A stretch of 35,367 nt of DNA from a virus. Under the pieces are notes generated by a model. The model searched no databases and was not told the origin of the DNA. It was given only the letters and a program-made list of their open reading frames with translations. Within the stretch, counting starts at the first letter, position 1. Each line of letters starts with the position of its first letter. The translations under genes were made by a program, and so were the position numbers. This document shows, one piece after another, positions 16,392 to 22,752 of this stretch. The DNA lies in the IMG/VR virus record IMGVR_UViG_3300048838_000259, positions 1 to 35,367 of that record; one strand, 5' to 3'.

Positions 16392-17851
16392 GTCACGCTG
16401 GCCCGCATCCGGTCCAGCGCACCGCTGGCAACGAGCCGGTTGACGAGTTCGACGTTGGCCGCCTCAAGCGCGGTCAATAGCGCGGCCTGTATCGCGTTGC
16501 TTTGCCGTTCCACCGTCGCCCGTTGTACCGCCGCTTGTTCGTCTACGCTACCCTGCGGCCCCGGCGTCGCGGGCTGTGCCTGTCCGGCTGTCGGCTTCGG
16601 TGCAACAGCCATCATCGCGCGCGCGTCTTCCATAAGCTGGTTTAGTTGGTCTTCCGTCCAGCCTTCATCGCGGAGGATATTCAAGATCGGGATACCGGCC
16701 TGCGTGTTGGTGAGGCGCGTGGTAGCTTGGCTCTGTGGCTGTACGGTGTGCGGTTCCTGCCAAATACACTCAATGTCTTCCGGGTCCACCGTCTGGCCCT
16801 GAATCATGAGGCAAAACGCCATGGCCCGCTGCCACTCTTCGCCCAATATACCTTGGTATAGTTCGATCTTCGCGATCAGCGGCGCCTCCATCGCCTGCAA
16901 CGCTTCGCCGCTCGCGTTCGCACCTTGCCCGGTGAAGTAGTGCTTGGGCGTTGCGCTCAACACCGCCATCGCGTCCGCCATGGAATCTATCGGCTCCAGA
17001 TAATTGCCGGGGTCACCAACGGGGAACGCGCCCACACCGCTAGGCTGATCGCCCGCTTCCGCTGCGGGAATCTTCAACAACGTACCCGGCCCCACGGGTA
17101 GCCCGCCTGCCTGTTCGTCCCAATGGCCGATGCCCCAGCGCTGCGGGAAACTGGTGAATTCGGACGATACCATCATATCGTTGAGCAGCTTATTCATCGC
17201 GTCTTGCAGGGACAAAACGCCCGCTGTGAGTTCGCCGGTACAGACGCGGCGGCCCGTGCGGAAATGAAATACCGGAATCACGCCGTAGGGGTTTAGCTCA
17301 GACGATTGCAGCGTGTACGCGCTCGCGTTCATCGGCTCGTTTTTCGATTCGTAATGTTCGATGGTGCCGGGGTAGTACAGGTTCAGGTAGTAGGTTTTAT
17401 TCGACACCCAGCGCTTACAGGCCACGCGCGGCACGTCGGGATATTCATCTTCGTAGATGACGTGCGCCTGTCGCGGGTCGTGGTAGTACGCGACGGGCTT
17501 CCCTGTCGGCCCCTGCCACGCGACAAGGTACGATTCGCCCGTGGATAGCGCGGCGGTGTGCAGGTCGTTGGCCGCCCGGTGCAATACGCGCTTCCATATA
17601 TCTTCCATCGTTTCGATAGTCGCGTCATCGTCCGCGTTCCACGCCTGCACCTTGAGTCGGTTTCGGCTGGCGTCAACGATAACCTGGCACCAGTTCTTCT
17701 TAAACACAACGCCGTTCGGCACAACCTGATTCATCTTCGGGTTGATAAACGCAATCGGGTGCTGCCCGTCGTAATAGCGCCAGCGCAGCGAGTGCGCTAT
17801 CTGCTTCGCGGCCATCGCGTCGTAGCACAGTTTCAGGTCGTTTTCTATCAT
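16388..17851 (-). CDS. Portal protein (SPP1 gp6-like)
   Basis: A 487-residue protein forming the dodecameric DNA gate at one vertex. ATG at 17851 overlaps the terminase stop (ATGA). The sequence RWRYYDGQHPIAFI, then VVFKKNWCQVIVDASRNRLK, TAALSTGESYLVAWQGPTGK and FRTGRRVCTGELTAGVLSLQ then DAMNKLLNDMMVSSEF fits the SPP1 gp6-type portal family. TPKHYFTGQGANASGEALQA and the C-terminal helical crown (about 420-487) also fit. Order terminase, portal, MuF is standard. Confidence 0.93.
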   Translation of the reverse strand: MIENDLKLCYDAMAAKQIAHSLRWRYYDGQHPIAFINPKMNQVVPNGVVFKKNWCQVIVDASRNRLKVQAWNADDDATIETMEDIWKRVLHRAANDLHTAALSTGESYLVAWQGPTGKPVAYYHDPRQAHVIYEDEYPDVPRVACKRWVSNKTYYLNLYYPGTIEHYESKNEPMNASAYTLQSSELNPYGVIPVFHFRTGRRVCTGELTAGVLSLQDAMNKLLNDMMVSSEFTSFPQRWGIGHWDEQAGGLPVGPGTLLKIPAAEAGDQPSGVGAFPVGDPGNYLEPIDSMADAMAVLSATPKHYFTGQGANASGEALQAMEAPLIAKIELYQGILGEEWQRAMAFCLMIQGQTVDPEDIECIWQEPHTVQPQSQATTRLTNTQAGIPILNILRDEGWTEDQLNQLMEDARAMMAVAPKPTAGQAQPATPGPQGSVDEQAAVQRATVERQSNAIQAALLTALEAANVELVNRLVASGALDRMRASVT

Positions 17852-19128
17852 GAAGCCGTCGCCTCTTTGTTTCCGCGCCGTAGTAGCGACGCGCCAAGCC
17901 ATACGAACGCGTCAAGCCGGTTCGGCGATTCGCCGCGCTCCGGCGTCCAGCCGCATAGTTCGTCTTCAAGTTTTACAAACTCACCGACGAACTTGATTTT
18001 GTTCTGTTCCGTCAACGCGGCGATGGGTTGCGCGCGCGGCACCTTGCCCCGCGAAGCCCATACTTTTTGCATAGGCACGTTAGCATCAACCGTGCGCAAG
18101 ACGTGCCGCACCATTTCGCCGCCTTGATTGGCCTCATAAATAATTTTGTCCGCCTTGTGCCGGTGATACGCCCGCACGGTCGCGCGACCCCACGCGTCTG
18201 GGCTTCCCTGTAGCGTGTCATCGGCAATCACGTACATAAGTCCGTTGCTTCCCTTGCCGCCCGTCACGATTCCCGCCTCATCGCCGCCGGGCGTGGCTGA
18301 GGGGTCGAGCGCTACGTGCATCCGCACGATTTCGACGCCTTCCGGCACACGTAGAACGCGGTTCCTATCTATCCACTCGCGCCGCCAGAGCGCGCCAGGG
18401 TCATCAACCTGCCAGAGTCCCTCGCGTAGCTGTTTCCGTGTTGCGGGGTCGAGCTTAGATAGCGCTTCCTCATATTCCGCCTGCCCGATGTGCGGATTGT
18501 CTTCAAGCCGGGCCGAAATGAATGCCGCCGTCGCGGTCGCGGGGTCGATAAACCTGCGATGCACCCAAGCGTGCCCGATGCCGCCGGGATTCGTCGCGGC
18601 CCGCATCCGCACCGGCACCGTAGCGGCCACCAAGCGCCGCAGGCGGCTGAAGAGGTAGGTATATTGCTGTTCGGTGAACTGCGTAAGTTCGTCGAAGCCT
18701 ACGAACTGGAATTCTGAACCCTGATAGCGGTATTTGTCGTTGTCGCTATCGAGGTAGCCGAACGTGAGGCTAGCGCCGCTGGGGAATACGAACGACTTTT
18801 CCGAAGCCACCCATCGGGCATCGGTCCCCATGAGCCACTGCTTTGCACGGTCCATGATGGCGCCCGGCATCGCGAGGTCGGGGAACGTCCGGCGTAACAG
18901 CAGGGCGCGGTAGTCCGGCACATGGACGAACTGGAGCGCGGCCATAATCATAGCGTCGGATTTGCCGCCGCCCGCCGCACCGCCGTAGAGTAGTTCGGCC
19001 TCATCAATGTGCGCGAGGAATTCAGCCTGCTTCGTGGTCGGCAAGTGCGGGATGTAGCGGTTGCTCAGGACGGTGTGTCCGAACGTCGCGAATGTCGAGG
19101 CAAGGCTAGCCACGAGTAGAAACAGCAC
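17848..19128 (-). CDS. terL: Terminase large subunit
   Basis: A 426-residue packaging motor. The N-terminal ATPase has Walker A GGAAGGGKSD at about residues 49-58, RALLLRRTFPDLAMPGAIMD, Walker B FQFVGFDELTQF near residue 140 and coupling motif AATNPGGIGHAW. The RNase H-like nuclease begins near VALDPSATPGGDEAGIVTGG and ends NRLDAFVW, with the expected aspartates. It translocates and cuts concatemeric DNA at the portal. The GTG start at 19128 has GGAGG nine bases upstream and overlaps the small-subunit gene by 23 bases. The extra hydrophobic N terminus is unusual; GTG 19113 is an alternative. Confidence 0.95.
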   Translation of the reverse strand: MLFLLVASLASTFATFGHTVLSNRYIPHLPTTKQAEFLAHIDEAELLYGGAAGGGKSDAMIMAALQFVHVPDYRALLLRRTFPDLAMPGAIMDRAKQWLMGTDARWVASEKSFVFPSGASLTFGYLDSDNDKYRYQGSEFQFVGFDELTQFTEQQYTYLFSRLRRLVAATVPVRMRAATNPGGIGHAWVHRRFIDPATATAAFISARLEDNPHIGQAEYEEALSKLDPATRKQLREGLWQVDDPGALWRREWIDRNRVLRVPEGVEIVRMHVALDPSATPGGDEAGIVTGGKGSNGLMYVIADDTLQGSPDAWGRATVRAYHRHKADKIIYEANQGGEMVRHVLRTVDANVPMQKVWASRGKVPRAQPIAALTEQNKIKFVGEFVKLEDELCGWTPERGESPNRLDAFVWLGASLLRRGNKEATAS

Positions 19129-19525
19129 GCTGTATAGCCTCCATGTAGGTGGCTACGGCTTCGTCGGCTGAGATAGCGGGCTGGTACGGCTGTGTGCCGT
19201 CCGGGGTAGTGGGAGCGATCTTCGTCGCGCCGTCCCAGCCTTTGAGCTTGGCGAGCCTATCAGCGGCCTTGATGGAGTCCGCATCCGAACCGCCCAGCAT
19301 AATTTGCGTCATACGCTCGCACGTCTGTTCGTAAGTCGCGATGCTCGCGGACTGGACAGACGCGCGGAGTCTGGATAGCTCATCTATGATGTTAACGTTC
19401 GCTAACAACCGGGAAGCTTGCTCATTCGCTGTTCGTGGGGAGTAACCCGCCCGCGTGGCTGCTTGTGTCCCGTTCGAGTCCTTGAGGTACTCGCGGACGA
19501 ACGCGGCCTGTTTCGGTGTGAGCAT
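19106..19525 (-). CDS. terS: Terminase small subunit
   Basis: A 139-residue protein starting MLTPKQAAFVREYLKDSNGT then QAATRAGYSPRTANEQASRL, the helix-turn-helix of the terminase_2 family that recognises packaging-site DNA. A helical oligomerisation part (about 55-95) follows, and a Pro/Thr linker with a C-terminal helix (DEAVATYMEAIQRAV) would contact the large subunit. It overlaps the 42-residue gene by TAATG and the large subunit by 23 bases. Confidence 0.93.
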   Translation of the reverse strand: MLTPKQAAFVREYLKDSNGTQAATRAGYSPRTANEQASRLLANVNIIDELSRLRASVQSASIATYEQTCERMTQIMLGGSDADSIKAADRLAKLKGWDGATKIAPTTPDGTQPYQPAISADEAVATYMEAIQRAVSTRG

Positions 19526-19719: not shown

Positions 19720-20154
19720 TTAGGCGTCCAGGAATTGGATGCCCGTGTAATAACGTTTACGGACTCCGTTTTTGCTTTCTCTGTAGTCGTATAATTCTGG
19801 AAAATAGTTTCTGATGGCCATACCAAATACCGCAATTGTTACAGGCCGGACACCTTTGTCCTTCGCCCATTCGGTGTAGGCTTTGTAAAGTTCGCTGCGC
19901 AAAATCATACCTTCGGAATCGATAGTGCATCGTTCTTTAAAAAAGTCGAAGGTGTCGATTTTTGTAACAACTCGATTCTGTGCCAAATATTTGTCGATAT
20001 CTTCAATAGCATATCGGATGCTTTTTTCCCCGATGATAAGGTATGGAAGATTCTGAATTGTTCCTGAGCTTTTCGATTTTCGCCGCCTTGATGCGAGGGT
20101 TTGTTTCGACAATCCCAAGATGTTTGCGGCCTCTTCTTCGGTTACTAACTGCAT
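19720..20154 (-). CDS. Excisionase-like HTH fused to D5 primase C-terminal winged helix
   Basis: A 144-residue protein. Residues 1-60 (VTEEEAANILGLSKQTLASR then RKSKS, ending DIDKYLAQN) are an HTH_17/MerR-excisionase-like domain. Residues about 68-142 (FFKERCTIDSEGMILRSELY, AYTEWAKDKGV, DYRESKNGVRKRYYTGIQF) closely match the end of the 760-residue primase (FIEDRCTLD, LYAAYLEWATDEG, DYRAKNYGARTRYYTGI), the Pox_D5-like winged helix. It lacks ATPase and primase domains. It has a perfect AAAGGAGG site eight bases before ATG and a consensus promoter with a dyad in the spacer. The gene is AT-richer than its neighbours, suggesting transfer. It is likely a DNA-binding regulator of replication or late transcription; no such fusion is known to me. 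Confidence 0.85.
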   Translation of the reverse strand: MQLVTEEEAANILGLSKQTLASRRRKSKSSGTIQNLPYLIIGEKSIRYAIEDIDKYLAQNRVVTKIDTFDFFKERCTIDSEGMILRSELYKAYTEWAKDKGVRPVTIAVFGMAIRNYFPELYDYRESKNGVRKRYYTGIQFLDA

Positions 20155-20162
20155 AAAAAAAA

Positions 20163-20170
20163 CCTCCTTT
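20163..20170 (-). promoter_or_regulatory. Strong ribosome binding site
   Basis: AAAGGAGG on the minus strand ends eight bases before the ATG of the HTH-D5 gene and is followed by a run of T. It is among the strongest Shine-Dalgarno sites in the window, so the protein is probably made in quantity. Confidence 0.8.
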
Positions 20171-20180
20171 AGTTGAGGTA

Positions 20181-20210
20181 ATTATACATGGACTATGTGG
20201 ACGTTGTCAA
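20181..20210 (-). promoter_or_regulatory. Consensus sigma70 promoter with dyad in spacer
   Basis: Perfect TTGACA (20210-20205) and TATAAT (20186-20181) are separated by 18 bases on the minus strand. The spacer (20187-20204) consists almost completely of the pair CATGGAC-TAT-GTGGAC (read on the plus strand), so a protein bound to these elements would block RNA polymerase. It drives the HTH-D5 gene with a predicted start near 20174. Confidence 0.85.
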
Positions 20211-20259
20211 AAACAAAAGGGTCCACGTTGTCCATGCTATCCCTATATCTATCTTATAT

Positions 20260-20272
20260 AGCGTATTACGCT
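20260..20272. repeat. 13-bp palindrome in the control region
   Basis: AGCGTA-T-TACGCT is a perfect palindrome around one base, in the AT-rich part of the control region. The arms touch, so it is a better candidate protein site than an RNA hairpin. Confidence 0.5.
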
Positions 20273-20402
20273 TTTTATAAGTTATAGAAAAAGGTCTGTA
20301 CGAACATGGACCCTTGGACACAGCCTTTATTTATAGGGGTTTTCTGCATGTTCGGGGTCCAAGCAAAACTGGCGTTAGCGCAGACGCCGAAAACCGAACT
20401 AC

Positions 20403-20437
20403 GAAAAATAAGAAACCCGCCGCGCGGTTGCGGCGGG
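20403..20437 (-). terminator. Intrinsic terminator after the primase gene
   Basis: CCCGCCGC (20416-20423) and GCGGCGGG (20430-20437) form a perfect 8-bp GC stem with a six-base loop. On the minus strand it is followed by TTTCTTATTTTT. It ends the long DNA-metabolism transcript 32 bases after the primase stop. A weaker GGCGT/ACGCC hairpin followed by TTTT lies just beyond, at 20371-20388. Confidence 0.85.
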
Positions 20438-20469
20438 GGTCCAAGTAGGGGGTCCATGCTGATAACCGG

Positions 20470-22752
20470 CTACTCCAGCTTGATCCCGGTGTAATACCGC
20501 GTCCGCGCGCCGTAGTTTTTGGCCCGGTAATCGTCAATTTCGGCGCAGGCCGCGCGCAGTTGCTGGCCGAATTTTGCCTTTCCGTATGGGCGTGTGAGCC
20601 CCTCGTCGGTGGCCCATTCGAGATAAGCGGCATAGAGCGCGTCGCGCGCCACGGTGGCCTGCGGGTCGAGCGTGCAGCGGTCTTCAATAAACGCGGTAAT
20701 CGGTGCCGACACTGCGCGGAACCCGGCAAGGATAGCGCGTGACTCGGCTGGTTCAGTAAACCGCCCTTGGGTGGTGAGCCGTTGCAGGCCGTCCAGCGCC
20801 CAGTTAAGGATGCCGGGTAGTTCCCGCCGTATTTTGGACTCCAGGAAGCGGTCCTCGCGCCCGAGGTGTGATTGGGTGGTTTGCAGCATGAGCAGGCGGC
20901 CCAAAAGCGCGCCCGAGGCGTCTGTGAGGTTCGGCAGTTCGTTCGATACCATCTGAATTTTGAGGGGGATGTGGCCCGTCCAGTCCGGCTTATAGAGCCG
21001 CCGGACGGTTTGTTTATCGCCGCCCGACAGGGATAGCAGGCGTTCCACGATGGAGGCTTGATCGTTCCTCCGTCCCAGCCGCGCGTCGGCGATTATGGCG
21101 AGGCGCATGTCTATGAGCACTTGCCCGCCGCGCGCGTCCCCGAGGCTGCCGAGGGTGGGGTTGCAGGTGCTGTCCGGCCCCATGAGTGCTTCGAGGGTGC
21201 GCGATATGACACCTTTGCCTGAGCGCTGCGGTCCTATTATCCAGAGCATTTTGTGGTGTGACATATCGCGTGACAGGCAATAGCCGAACCACTCGCCTAG
21301 AAGGAGGGCGCAGTCTGCGCCGCTGTCACCCGGCCACGTGCGGGTGAGGAAGTCCACCCACGTTTCCGGGCTGTCCGCGTCCGGCGAATAGGCGAACGGC
21401 AGTGTTGAGGTTACGAAGAGCGCCGGGGTGTGCGGGATAAACTCGCGGCTGCTGTCGAGCCGTAGCAGGCCGTTGCGCACGGAGATCCATTCCGAGGCGG
21501 AGGGGCGCGGTGTGCCGTCCATCCAGAACGGTGCTTCCTGCCGGGCGGGTAGCATGCAGAGGCCGCGTAGCTGTGACATAACGTCGCGTAGTAGGCCGTC
21601 CTTCAGGATGCAGCGGACTGTTTTAAGTTTATCCGAGTCGTTGTAGTAGTGCCAGCGTGACAGGGTTTCCGAGAGTTGCCGGTGTAGGGCTTCCACGTCC
21701 AGCACGCGGTAGTGTGTGCGGTCGTAGATGTACCAGTCGCCGCGCCAGTAGCGGAGGGTCCTCCCAGGGTGCGTTTCTGAATTGAATTTTTCTGCGAGGT
21801 CGCGGGGCGACGGCGTCACCACGTAGTTCGGCTGGTCCGGGTCACCCGTTGAGTTGCTTGCCCCGCGCGGCGGCACGTCCGTCGGTATCTGCGGTGGTCC
21901 CGCGGTGCCGGTGCGCGGCGCGTCACGCCCGGCGCGTGGCGGTGGCACCGGCACCGGTTTCTGTCGCCCTGCGGTAATACCGGATTTCAGGGTAGCATGT
22001 GACTCGCGTTCCGGCAGGCCAGCGGCCACGGCGGCGGGTAGCAGCGCGTTAATGATTTCGCCGTCCGTGAGTTCGGTTAGGCGTGCGAGGGAGTAGGCTT
22101 CGCGGTTCAGCGTGGCGTTGCGTTCGCCTTCGGGCGCGGTGGTAACGGTTGCAGCCGCCCGTTGCAAGGCGGCGGCTACGTAGCCAGAACCCGGCGTGGT
22201 TGCAGGTAGCGGTAGCTGTGGCGCGGCGGTGTTGAGTTTGGCGGGCGGCGTGTTGATGGCGTCGATCACCCACTGCGGGAGGTCGGCCAGTTCGATTTCA
22301 TCTGGGGCGCGTCCCGGCATCCACTCATAGAGTGCGCCGGTATCAGCGTGAACGCTGCCCGGCGCCACGACTTGCCCGCCCTCGCCCCGCGTGTCGGTAG
22401 AGGCGTGGATATGCCGCGCGGTGTTGCCTACTCTCATCTTGGGCGTGCCCGGCGGCACGCGGTAGTACAGATGCACCCCGCCTCCGCCGGTTTGTGCCGT
22501 GATGGTAGGCGGCAGTCCCGGTGGCGCATCGCCGTCGCAGTCTACTACGAGCAGGCCGTTGCCGGTGCGGATGCCGATGTTCCCGTCGGCGTCGAGCCAT
22601 GCTTGGGCTTCATCGGCGGTGATGCCGGGCCGTTTTTGCCAGTCGCGCGCGATGGGCCGCTTGCCGGGTGATGGTCCTTTGTCTGCCGGGCCGGACAGTT
22701 TAATAAGCGGCCACCCGAACCGGATGGCCGCCTGAATCGCGTCGGTGGTCAT
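20470..22752 (-). CDS. Primase-polymerase / SF3 helicase with D5 C terminus
   Basis: A 760-residue replication protein. Residues about 1-190 are a bifunctional primase/polymerase (Prim-Pol) domain, with IGIRTGNGLLVVDCDGD (metal-binding aspartates), TAQTGGGGVHLYYRVPPGT and GEGGQVVAPGSVH. After a Pro-rich linker (about 265-310) comes a D5_N-like part and an SF3 helicase: Walker A IIGPQRSGKGVISR near residue 500, LAIIADARLG, and VSNELPNLTDASGALLGRLL. The last 75 residues are the D5-type winged helix ending RYYTGIKLE. It would prime and unwind phage DNA; the iteron cluster starts 14 bases beyond its stop. ATGA overlap with the methyltransferase. Confidence 0.92.
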   Translation of the reverse strand: MTTDAIQAAIRFGWPLIKLSGPADKGPSPGKRPIARDWQKRPGITADEAQAWLDADGNIGIRTGNGLLVVDCDGDAPPGLPPTITAQTGGGGVHLYYRVPPGTPKMRVGNTARHIHASTDTRGEGGQVVAPGSVHADTGALYEWMPGRAPDEIELADLPQWVIDAINTPPAKLNTAAPQLPLPATTPGSGYVAAALQRAAATVTTAPEGERNATLNREAYSLARLTELTDGEIINALLPAAVAAGLPERESHATLKSGITAGRQKPVPVPPPRAGRDAPRTGTAGPPQIPTDVPPRGASNSTGDPDQPNYVVTPSPRDLAEKFNSETHPGRTLRYWRGDWYIYDRTHYRVLDVEALHRQLSETLSRWHYYNDSDKLKTVRCILKDGLLRDVMSQLRGLCMLPARQEAPFWMDGTPRPSASEWISVRNGLLRLDSSREFIPHTPALFVTSTLPFAYSPDADSPETWVDFLTRTWPGDSGADCALLLGEWFGYCLSRDMSHHKMLWIIGPQRSGKGVISRTLEALMGPDSTCNPTLGSLGDARGGQVLIDMRLAIIADARLGRRNDQASIVERLLSLSGGDKQTVRRLYKPDWTGHIPLKIQMVSNELPNLTDASGALLGRLLMLQTTQSHLGREDRFLESKIRRELPGILNWALDGLQRLTTQGRFTEPAESRAILAGFRAVSAPITAFIEDRCTLDPQATVARDALYAAYLEWATDEGLTRPYGKAKFGQQLRAACAEIDDYRAKNYGARTRYYTGIKLE

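Follow-up and report, generated by a model that had tools for sequence, protein, structure and literature searches.

A cluster of short GTCCA repeats located directly 3′ of a primase gene in a tailed phage genome probably serves as a replication origin. The explanation that best accounts for the whole arrangement, and which we consider likely, is that the repeats form an iteron origin read both by the primase and by a 144-residue protein carrying a copy of the primase C-terminal domain, and that the same repeats double as an operator. The window, meaning the entire stretch of DNA analyzed, comprises the whole of an IMG/VR virus record (35,367 bases) and encodes head, tail and packaging functions. 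Terminase, portal, capsid and tape measure are all encoded, so this is not a PICI or satellite in the sense of an element that has no structural genes of its own.

Every gene assigned to a known family is on the minus strand, in the order methyltransferase, primase, 144-residue protein, small terminase subunit, large terminase subunit, portal and the rest. The primase gene (20470..22752) encodes a 760-residue protein, the presumed initiator. The repeat cluster sits between this gene and that of the 144-residue protein (19720..20154), which heads the terminase operon. The small subunit gene (19106..19525; Pfam Terminase_2, 1.5e-21) is the first of the packaging genes and runs in the same direction, and it is followed by that of the large subunit (17848..19128; PHROG 979, 2.9e-90). 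The best GenBank phage match of the large subunit is to Methanothermobacter phage psiM100, an archaeal virus (39%), and it also has a 63% match to IMG/VR contig L009.

Nine copies of GTCCA or its complement TGGAC, with strand given as a sign, begin at positions 20189−, 20198−, 20221+, 20230+, 20307−, 20315−, 20357+, 20439+ and 20452+, thereby spanning 20189–20456. GTCCA is the commonest pentamer within 20155–20470, where 5000 dinucleotide shuffles yield a mean of 0.38 copies and a maximum of 5, as anticipated by the original prediction of nine copies where under one is expected. Some pentamer of any sequence reaches at least nine copies in 47 of 3000 shuffles (∼1.6%). The bare count is thus unusual but not astronomically rare, and it is the structure of the cluster that adds weight. 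Three instances of GTCCA-N(2–5)-GTCCATG occur in 35 kb, all within the cluster, where none is expected, and the four perfect copies of GGGTCCAWG in the whole record are likewise confined to it. A count of the pentamer over the window, one of the checks proposed at the outset, gives 74 copies versus 58 ± 7. Because this excess is only mild, the density at the cluster is local. DnaA boxes were also considered; taking their consensus to be TTGTCCACA-like, we find no full fit at any site, and the flanking nucleotides favor GG-GTCCA-WG.

The repeats are organized as two sets that flank AT-rich DNA. Nearest to the end of the primase gene at 20470 is the plus-strand iteron GGGTCCATG (20450..20458), followed by two plus-strand copies of GGGTCCAAG (20437..20445 and 20355..20363) and by a minus-strand pair, GTCCAAGGGTCCATG, with 8-bp spacing (20305..20319), which had previously been missed. 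On the other side lie the pairs GTCCACGTTGTCCATG (20221..20236, plus strand) and GTCCACATAGTCCATG (20187..20202, minus strand), the latter being the candidate operator. Between the two sets (20187–20236, and 20305–20319 onward), the stretch from 20237 to 20304 is 71% AT and is a candidate melting site; within the window, AT content over 65 bp peaks at 20244–20308. Several architectural claims of the original prediction hold on inspection: the 16-bp units at 20187–20202 and 20221–20236 are inverted (88% complementary) with centers 34 bp apart, GGGGTCCAAG occurs twice in the cluster as an exact repeat, and the 13-bp palindrome AGCGTATTACGCT (20260–20272) and AT-rich DNA lie between paired units. 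The proposed check of GC skew gave no clear switch or origin signature at the cluster. Neither a tRNA nor an RNA family scoring over its cut-off was found at the site.

One repeat pair coincides with a promoter. The sequence TTGACA-18-TATAAT at 20210–20181 on the minus strand reads into the gene of the 144-residue protein and matches the sigma-70 consensus at 12 of 12 positions; it is the only such promoter in the 35-kb record, where 0.002 are expected. As had been predicted, a paired unit (20187–20202) lies inside its spacer, and indeed fills most of it. An intrinsic terminator with eight G-C pairs followed by TTTCTTATTT (20416..20437, minus strand) ends the primase operon, and this G+C-rich element separates the predicted primase transcript from the promoter.

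Two proteins encoded next to the cluster are candidate readers of the repeats. By Pfam, the primase combines Prim-Pol (1.2e-27), helicase and winged-helix domains in one protein, with D5_N (2e-10), Pox_D5 (2.1e-7) and DUF5906 matches, and its PHROG match is DNA primase (1.4e-72). Its C-terminal winged helix, at about residues 680–759, is Pox_D5/RFX-like, scoring 31.8 bits with Pox_D5 versus a cut-off of 21.4 and 24.9 bits with PF02257, which is below the cut-off for that family. The 144-residue protein consists of an HTH_17-like region (residues 4–61) and an RFX/Pox_D5 winged helix (66–141) that is 46% identical to the primase C terminus (E = 2e-17) and scores 40.6 bits with RFX (PF02257) against a curated cut-off of 27 bits. 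In the predicted model of this protein, pLDDT is 93–98 over the winged-helix core, and the HTH_17 part is poorly modeled. The closest folds to the modeled winged helix are those of RFX5 (Z 12.7), RFX1 (1dp7; Z 12.6 over 76 residues, rmsd 1.6) and the P4 origin-binding domain (Z 9.2). The C-terminal domain is thus predicted to have the RFX winged-helix fold. The original prediction had named the primase C-terminal domain and its copy as the leading candidates for binding the repeats, and this proposal gains from the domain assignments, from the modeled fold and from a second example described below.

Both genes together are present in only one other contig, which is 100% identical over 15 kb. 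When the 144-residue protein was used to look for near relatives, IMG/VR and GTDB genomes yielded this identical contig, distant primases or nothing; none was found among GenBank phages, and plasmids gave weak matches only, mostly to primases. Because only an identical contig carries both genes, the comparison was moved to distant relatives of the primase. Eighty were collected, and 70 non-redundant loci were analyzed for an over-represented hexamer in each 500-bp window, without reference to GTCCA, with 16 other 500-bp windows upstream and downstream serving as controls. In the window that begins where the primase gene ends, on its 3′ side, such a hexamer is present at p < 1e-6 in 44% of the 70 loci versus 0 to 7% in the other windows; at p < 1e-8 the corresponding values are 36% and 0 to 7%. 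A weaker replicate comes from 71 further loci in bacterial genomes, most of them Streptomyces, wherein the value 3′ of the primase (15%) is the highest of all windows (0 to 13% in the others). To judge from these sequence comparisons, repeats directly 3′ of such primases are a habit of the family.

The over-represented word is specific to the lineage, and includes GGTCCA, TGTGCC (the word of a large clade of relatives), GGTTAC, CCTGCA, GACTAC, CGTCTC and others. Three relatives, L374, L377 and L385, carry nine to ten copies of GGTCCA, paired at 9 bp and arranged as inverted sets with AT-rich DNA between them. In another, L425, GGTTAC/GTAACC occurs 14 to 15 times in the 550 bp that follow the primase stop (6220); this word is reminiscent of an RFX X-box half-site, and the winged helix of the L425 primase belongs to the RFX fold. 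The original prediction had set against itself the finding of relatives that keep the genes and lack the repeats. That outcome applies to lytic Vibrio and enterobacterial phages, whose distant D5 primases have no GTCCA cluster, and to the 56% of the 70 relatives that lack a strong word under the threshold applied; degeneracy of the words or an origin located elsewhere would account for these. The other 44% keep a word.

Repeats of this kind also adjoin other helicases. A pattern scan of IMG/VR revealed arrays of 9-bp GTCCA iterons that flank AT-rich DNA beside VapE or DUF5906 helicase genes. These GTCCAnnnn iterons form inverted sets at the 3′ ends of the genes, in non-coding or gene-end sequence (L161, 5737–5951; L208, 1849–2235; L244, 8053–8373; L249, 12391–12644; L292, 800–1065; L315, 1370–1659). 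The non-coding arrays adjoining these helicases suggested a general rule whereby repeats reside beside the helicase, and the pentamer may be widely used as an iteron core. The scan also found TGTCCACATTGTCCACA-type arrays that lack an adjacent helicase and lie directly upstream of a gene pair sized and ordered like those of the small and large terminase subunits (L106, 92–478; L228, 826–1154; L323, 3780–4095; L243, 4486–4766; L317, 2853–3236). Many other matches were rejected as noise, since they are collagen-like coding repeats in which 9 bp equal three codons. The GTCCANNNN tandem repeats in L256, L210, L211, L274 and others look like collagen-like Gly-Pro-X coding sequence and constitute a trap for searches of 9-bp iterons.

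Contig L384 appears to be an independent second example of repeats, a stand-alone reader and terminase genes together. A profile built without P0001 and L384 finds the winged helix in a 113-residue stand-alone protein of L384 (i-E 1.6e-9), and also recovers the P0001 winged helix (1.4e-17). In L384, CGTCC repeats flanking a very AT-rich stretch are followed by the stand-alone winged-helix gene and by Pfam-supported genes for the small and large terminase subunits, which is the gene order of the window from the repeats through the large subunit. Small reading frames occupy the ∼2 kb that separate the L384 repeats from the primase gene. The small winged-helix gene has a promoter that matches at 10 of 12 positions and whose −35 box is one of the repeats, seemingly a weaker echo of the overlap seen in the window. 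In both the window and L384, the winged helix closest to the stand-alone copy is that of its own primase; the winged-helix tree is too short to settle whether the copy is a duplicate that arose within the genome.

A residue code in the wing, involving R125 and R134, was also considered. R125 is present in 16 of 16 readers of GTCC versus 10 of 21 others when clades are not collapsed, and this striking pattern becomes weak once they are (p about 0.04). Tracking of the word by wing residues is then only suggestive.

We propose an origin of the type in which a primase-helicase that loads itself recognizes short iterons immediately 3′ of the gene encoding it. Through its C-terminal winged helix, the primase would bind the GGTCCA iterons in the two sets on either side of 20237–20304, and hexamers assembling there would melt the AT-rich DNA and prime synthesis. 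The 144-residue protein, in which a stand-alone copy of the winged helix is joined to an HTH_17-like domain, would read the same iterons and is presumed to be the second reader and an autoregulator. Because one iteron pair is inside the promoter of the first gene of the operon, its occupation by either protein should repress transcription of the 144-residue protein and terminase genes. The outcome would be negative autoregulation, and occupancy of the origin might be coupled to expression of the packaging genes.

The components of this model differ in strength. The proposal of an origin draws on comparison, namely the family-wide iterons, the GGTCCA arrays of L374, L377 and L385, and a layout shared with SaPI, PICI and SCCmec elements, and GC skew adds no signal. 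The proposal of a switch draws on anatomy, specifically a perfect promoter that has the repeat pair in its spacer and whose gene heads the terminase operon, and we give repression by this pair roughly an even chance. It is a tentative, and on balance doubtful, extension that the primase and the stand-alone copy compete for shared origin and operator iterons and thereby time the passage from replication to packaging, in an arrangement that arose or was kept independently in L384.

Other explanations were weighed against an iteron origin. The cluster might be solely a set of operators through which the 144-residue protein represses the promoter of the terminase operon, with the origin elsewhere. 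The pair in the promoter spacer and the two DNA-binding domains of the protein favor this idea, but on the upstream side of the promoter the repeats continue for 250 bp, as far as the end of the primase gene, and L374, L377, L385 and others keep iterons in the same place where no stand-alone winged-helix gene was found; we consider it unlikely. A cos or pac site, wherein the repeats are bound by the small terminase subunit encoded beside them, is less probable again. Terminase genes do follow iterons in the window, L384 and L354, as well as in several contigs such as L106, L161 and L228, where GTCCA clusters were recognized by pattern alone and terminase genes by order and size. However, the repeats track the 3′ end of the primase gene over 70 relatives, and iterons are present where the next gene is not a terminase gene, for example in L350, in which a ParB-methyltransferase follows.

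Structure formation by the DNA could also be considered, since the origin of pRN1 is a stem-loop immediately 3′ of a gene with the Prim-Pol/SF3/winged-helix plan (PMC4234260), and inverted repeat copies might act as hairpins rather than as iterons. The minus strand of 20155–20470, folded as a single strand, is indeed more stable than all 100 shuffles (z −5.2), chiefly through inverted iterons pairing across about 120 bases. Such pairing is an automatic consequence of inverted iterons, however, and a hairpin leaves unexplained both the 9-bp spacing within pairs and the direct pairs carried by relatives. Like the packaging site, this possibility is disfavored, and we rate it the more remote of the two. 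Chance or composition can match the bare pentamer count, as noted above, but is extremely improbable given the pairs, the confinement of perfect GGGTCCAWG to this site, the AT-rich center, the promoter overlap and the family-wide position.

If the iteron-origin explanation is correct, then the positions of origins in a large group of uncultured phages can be predicted from the primase gene alone. The matched winged helices and words, such as GGTCCA, TGTGCC, GGTTAC and CCTGCA, would provide a natural set for studying RFX-like DNA recognition. If the stand-alone copy truly competes with the primase, this would directly link the start of replication to the switching on of packaging. No paper in the literature collection searched was found to describe a separate copy of this domain next to its origin, a negative that argues only weakly for novelty.

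Known systems share various portions of this arrangement. Eukaryotic RFX1 and RFX5 are the best sequence and fold matches of the C-terminal domain of the 144-residue protein (Z 12.6–12.7, 22–26% identity), but they are otherwise different proteins with other roles; the iterons might resemble the RFX X-box. In iteron plasmids, an iteron-like site over a promoter is a device for Rep autoregulation. The window has such a site, except that two proteins share the reader domain and the promoter leads to packaging genes. The alpha protein of phage P4 has an origin-binding domain of winged-helix fold (1KA8), and this initiator reads repeats at an origin with a two-site layout; however, P4 has a Toprim-type primase, and the domain is 15% identical to that of the window.

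The ORF904 protein of pRN1 joins Prim-Pol, SF3 helicase and C-terminal winged-helix domains as the primase does, and its origin is likewise immediately 3′ of the gene, but that origin is a stem-loop of about 100 nt without iterons, and its small repressor, orf56, which shares a transcript with the replication gene, has not been described as copying the winged helix. The layout matches those of mobile elements in which an SF3/D5-type helicase carries a C-terminal DNA-binding domain. The iterons that this domain recognizes in SaPIs, and by binding assay in SCCmec Cch2, directly follow the helicase gene (PMC7581432), and PICIs have an AT-rich region between two sets of iterons (PMC6092414). The window has the same helicase plan, downstream iterons and AT-rich stretch between two iteron sets, with its nearest iteron at 20450–20458 adjoining the gene end at 20470, and by analogy with these elements and with pRN1 the cluster is probably an origin. 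Unlike SaPIs, PICIs and SCCmec, the window represents a complete tailed phage that supplies head and tail genes itself, and it encodes a stand-alone copy of the putative reader next door, with an iteron pair in the promoter of that gene.
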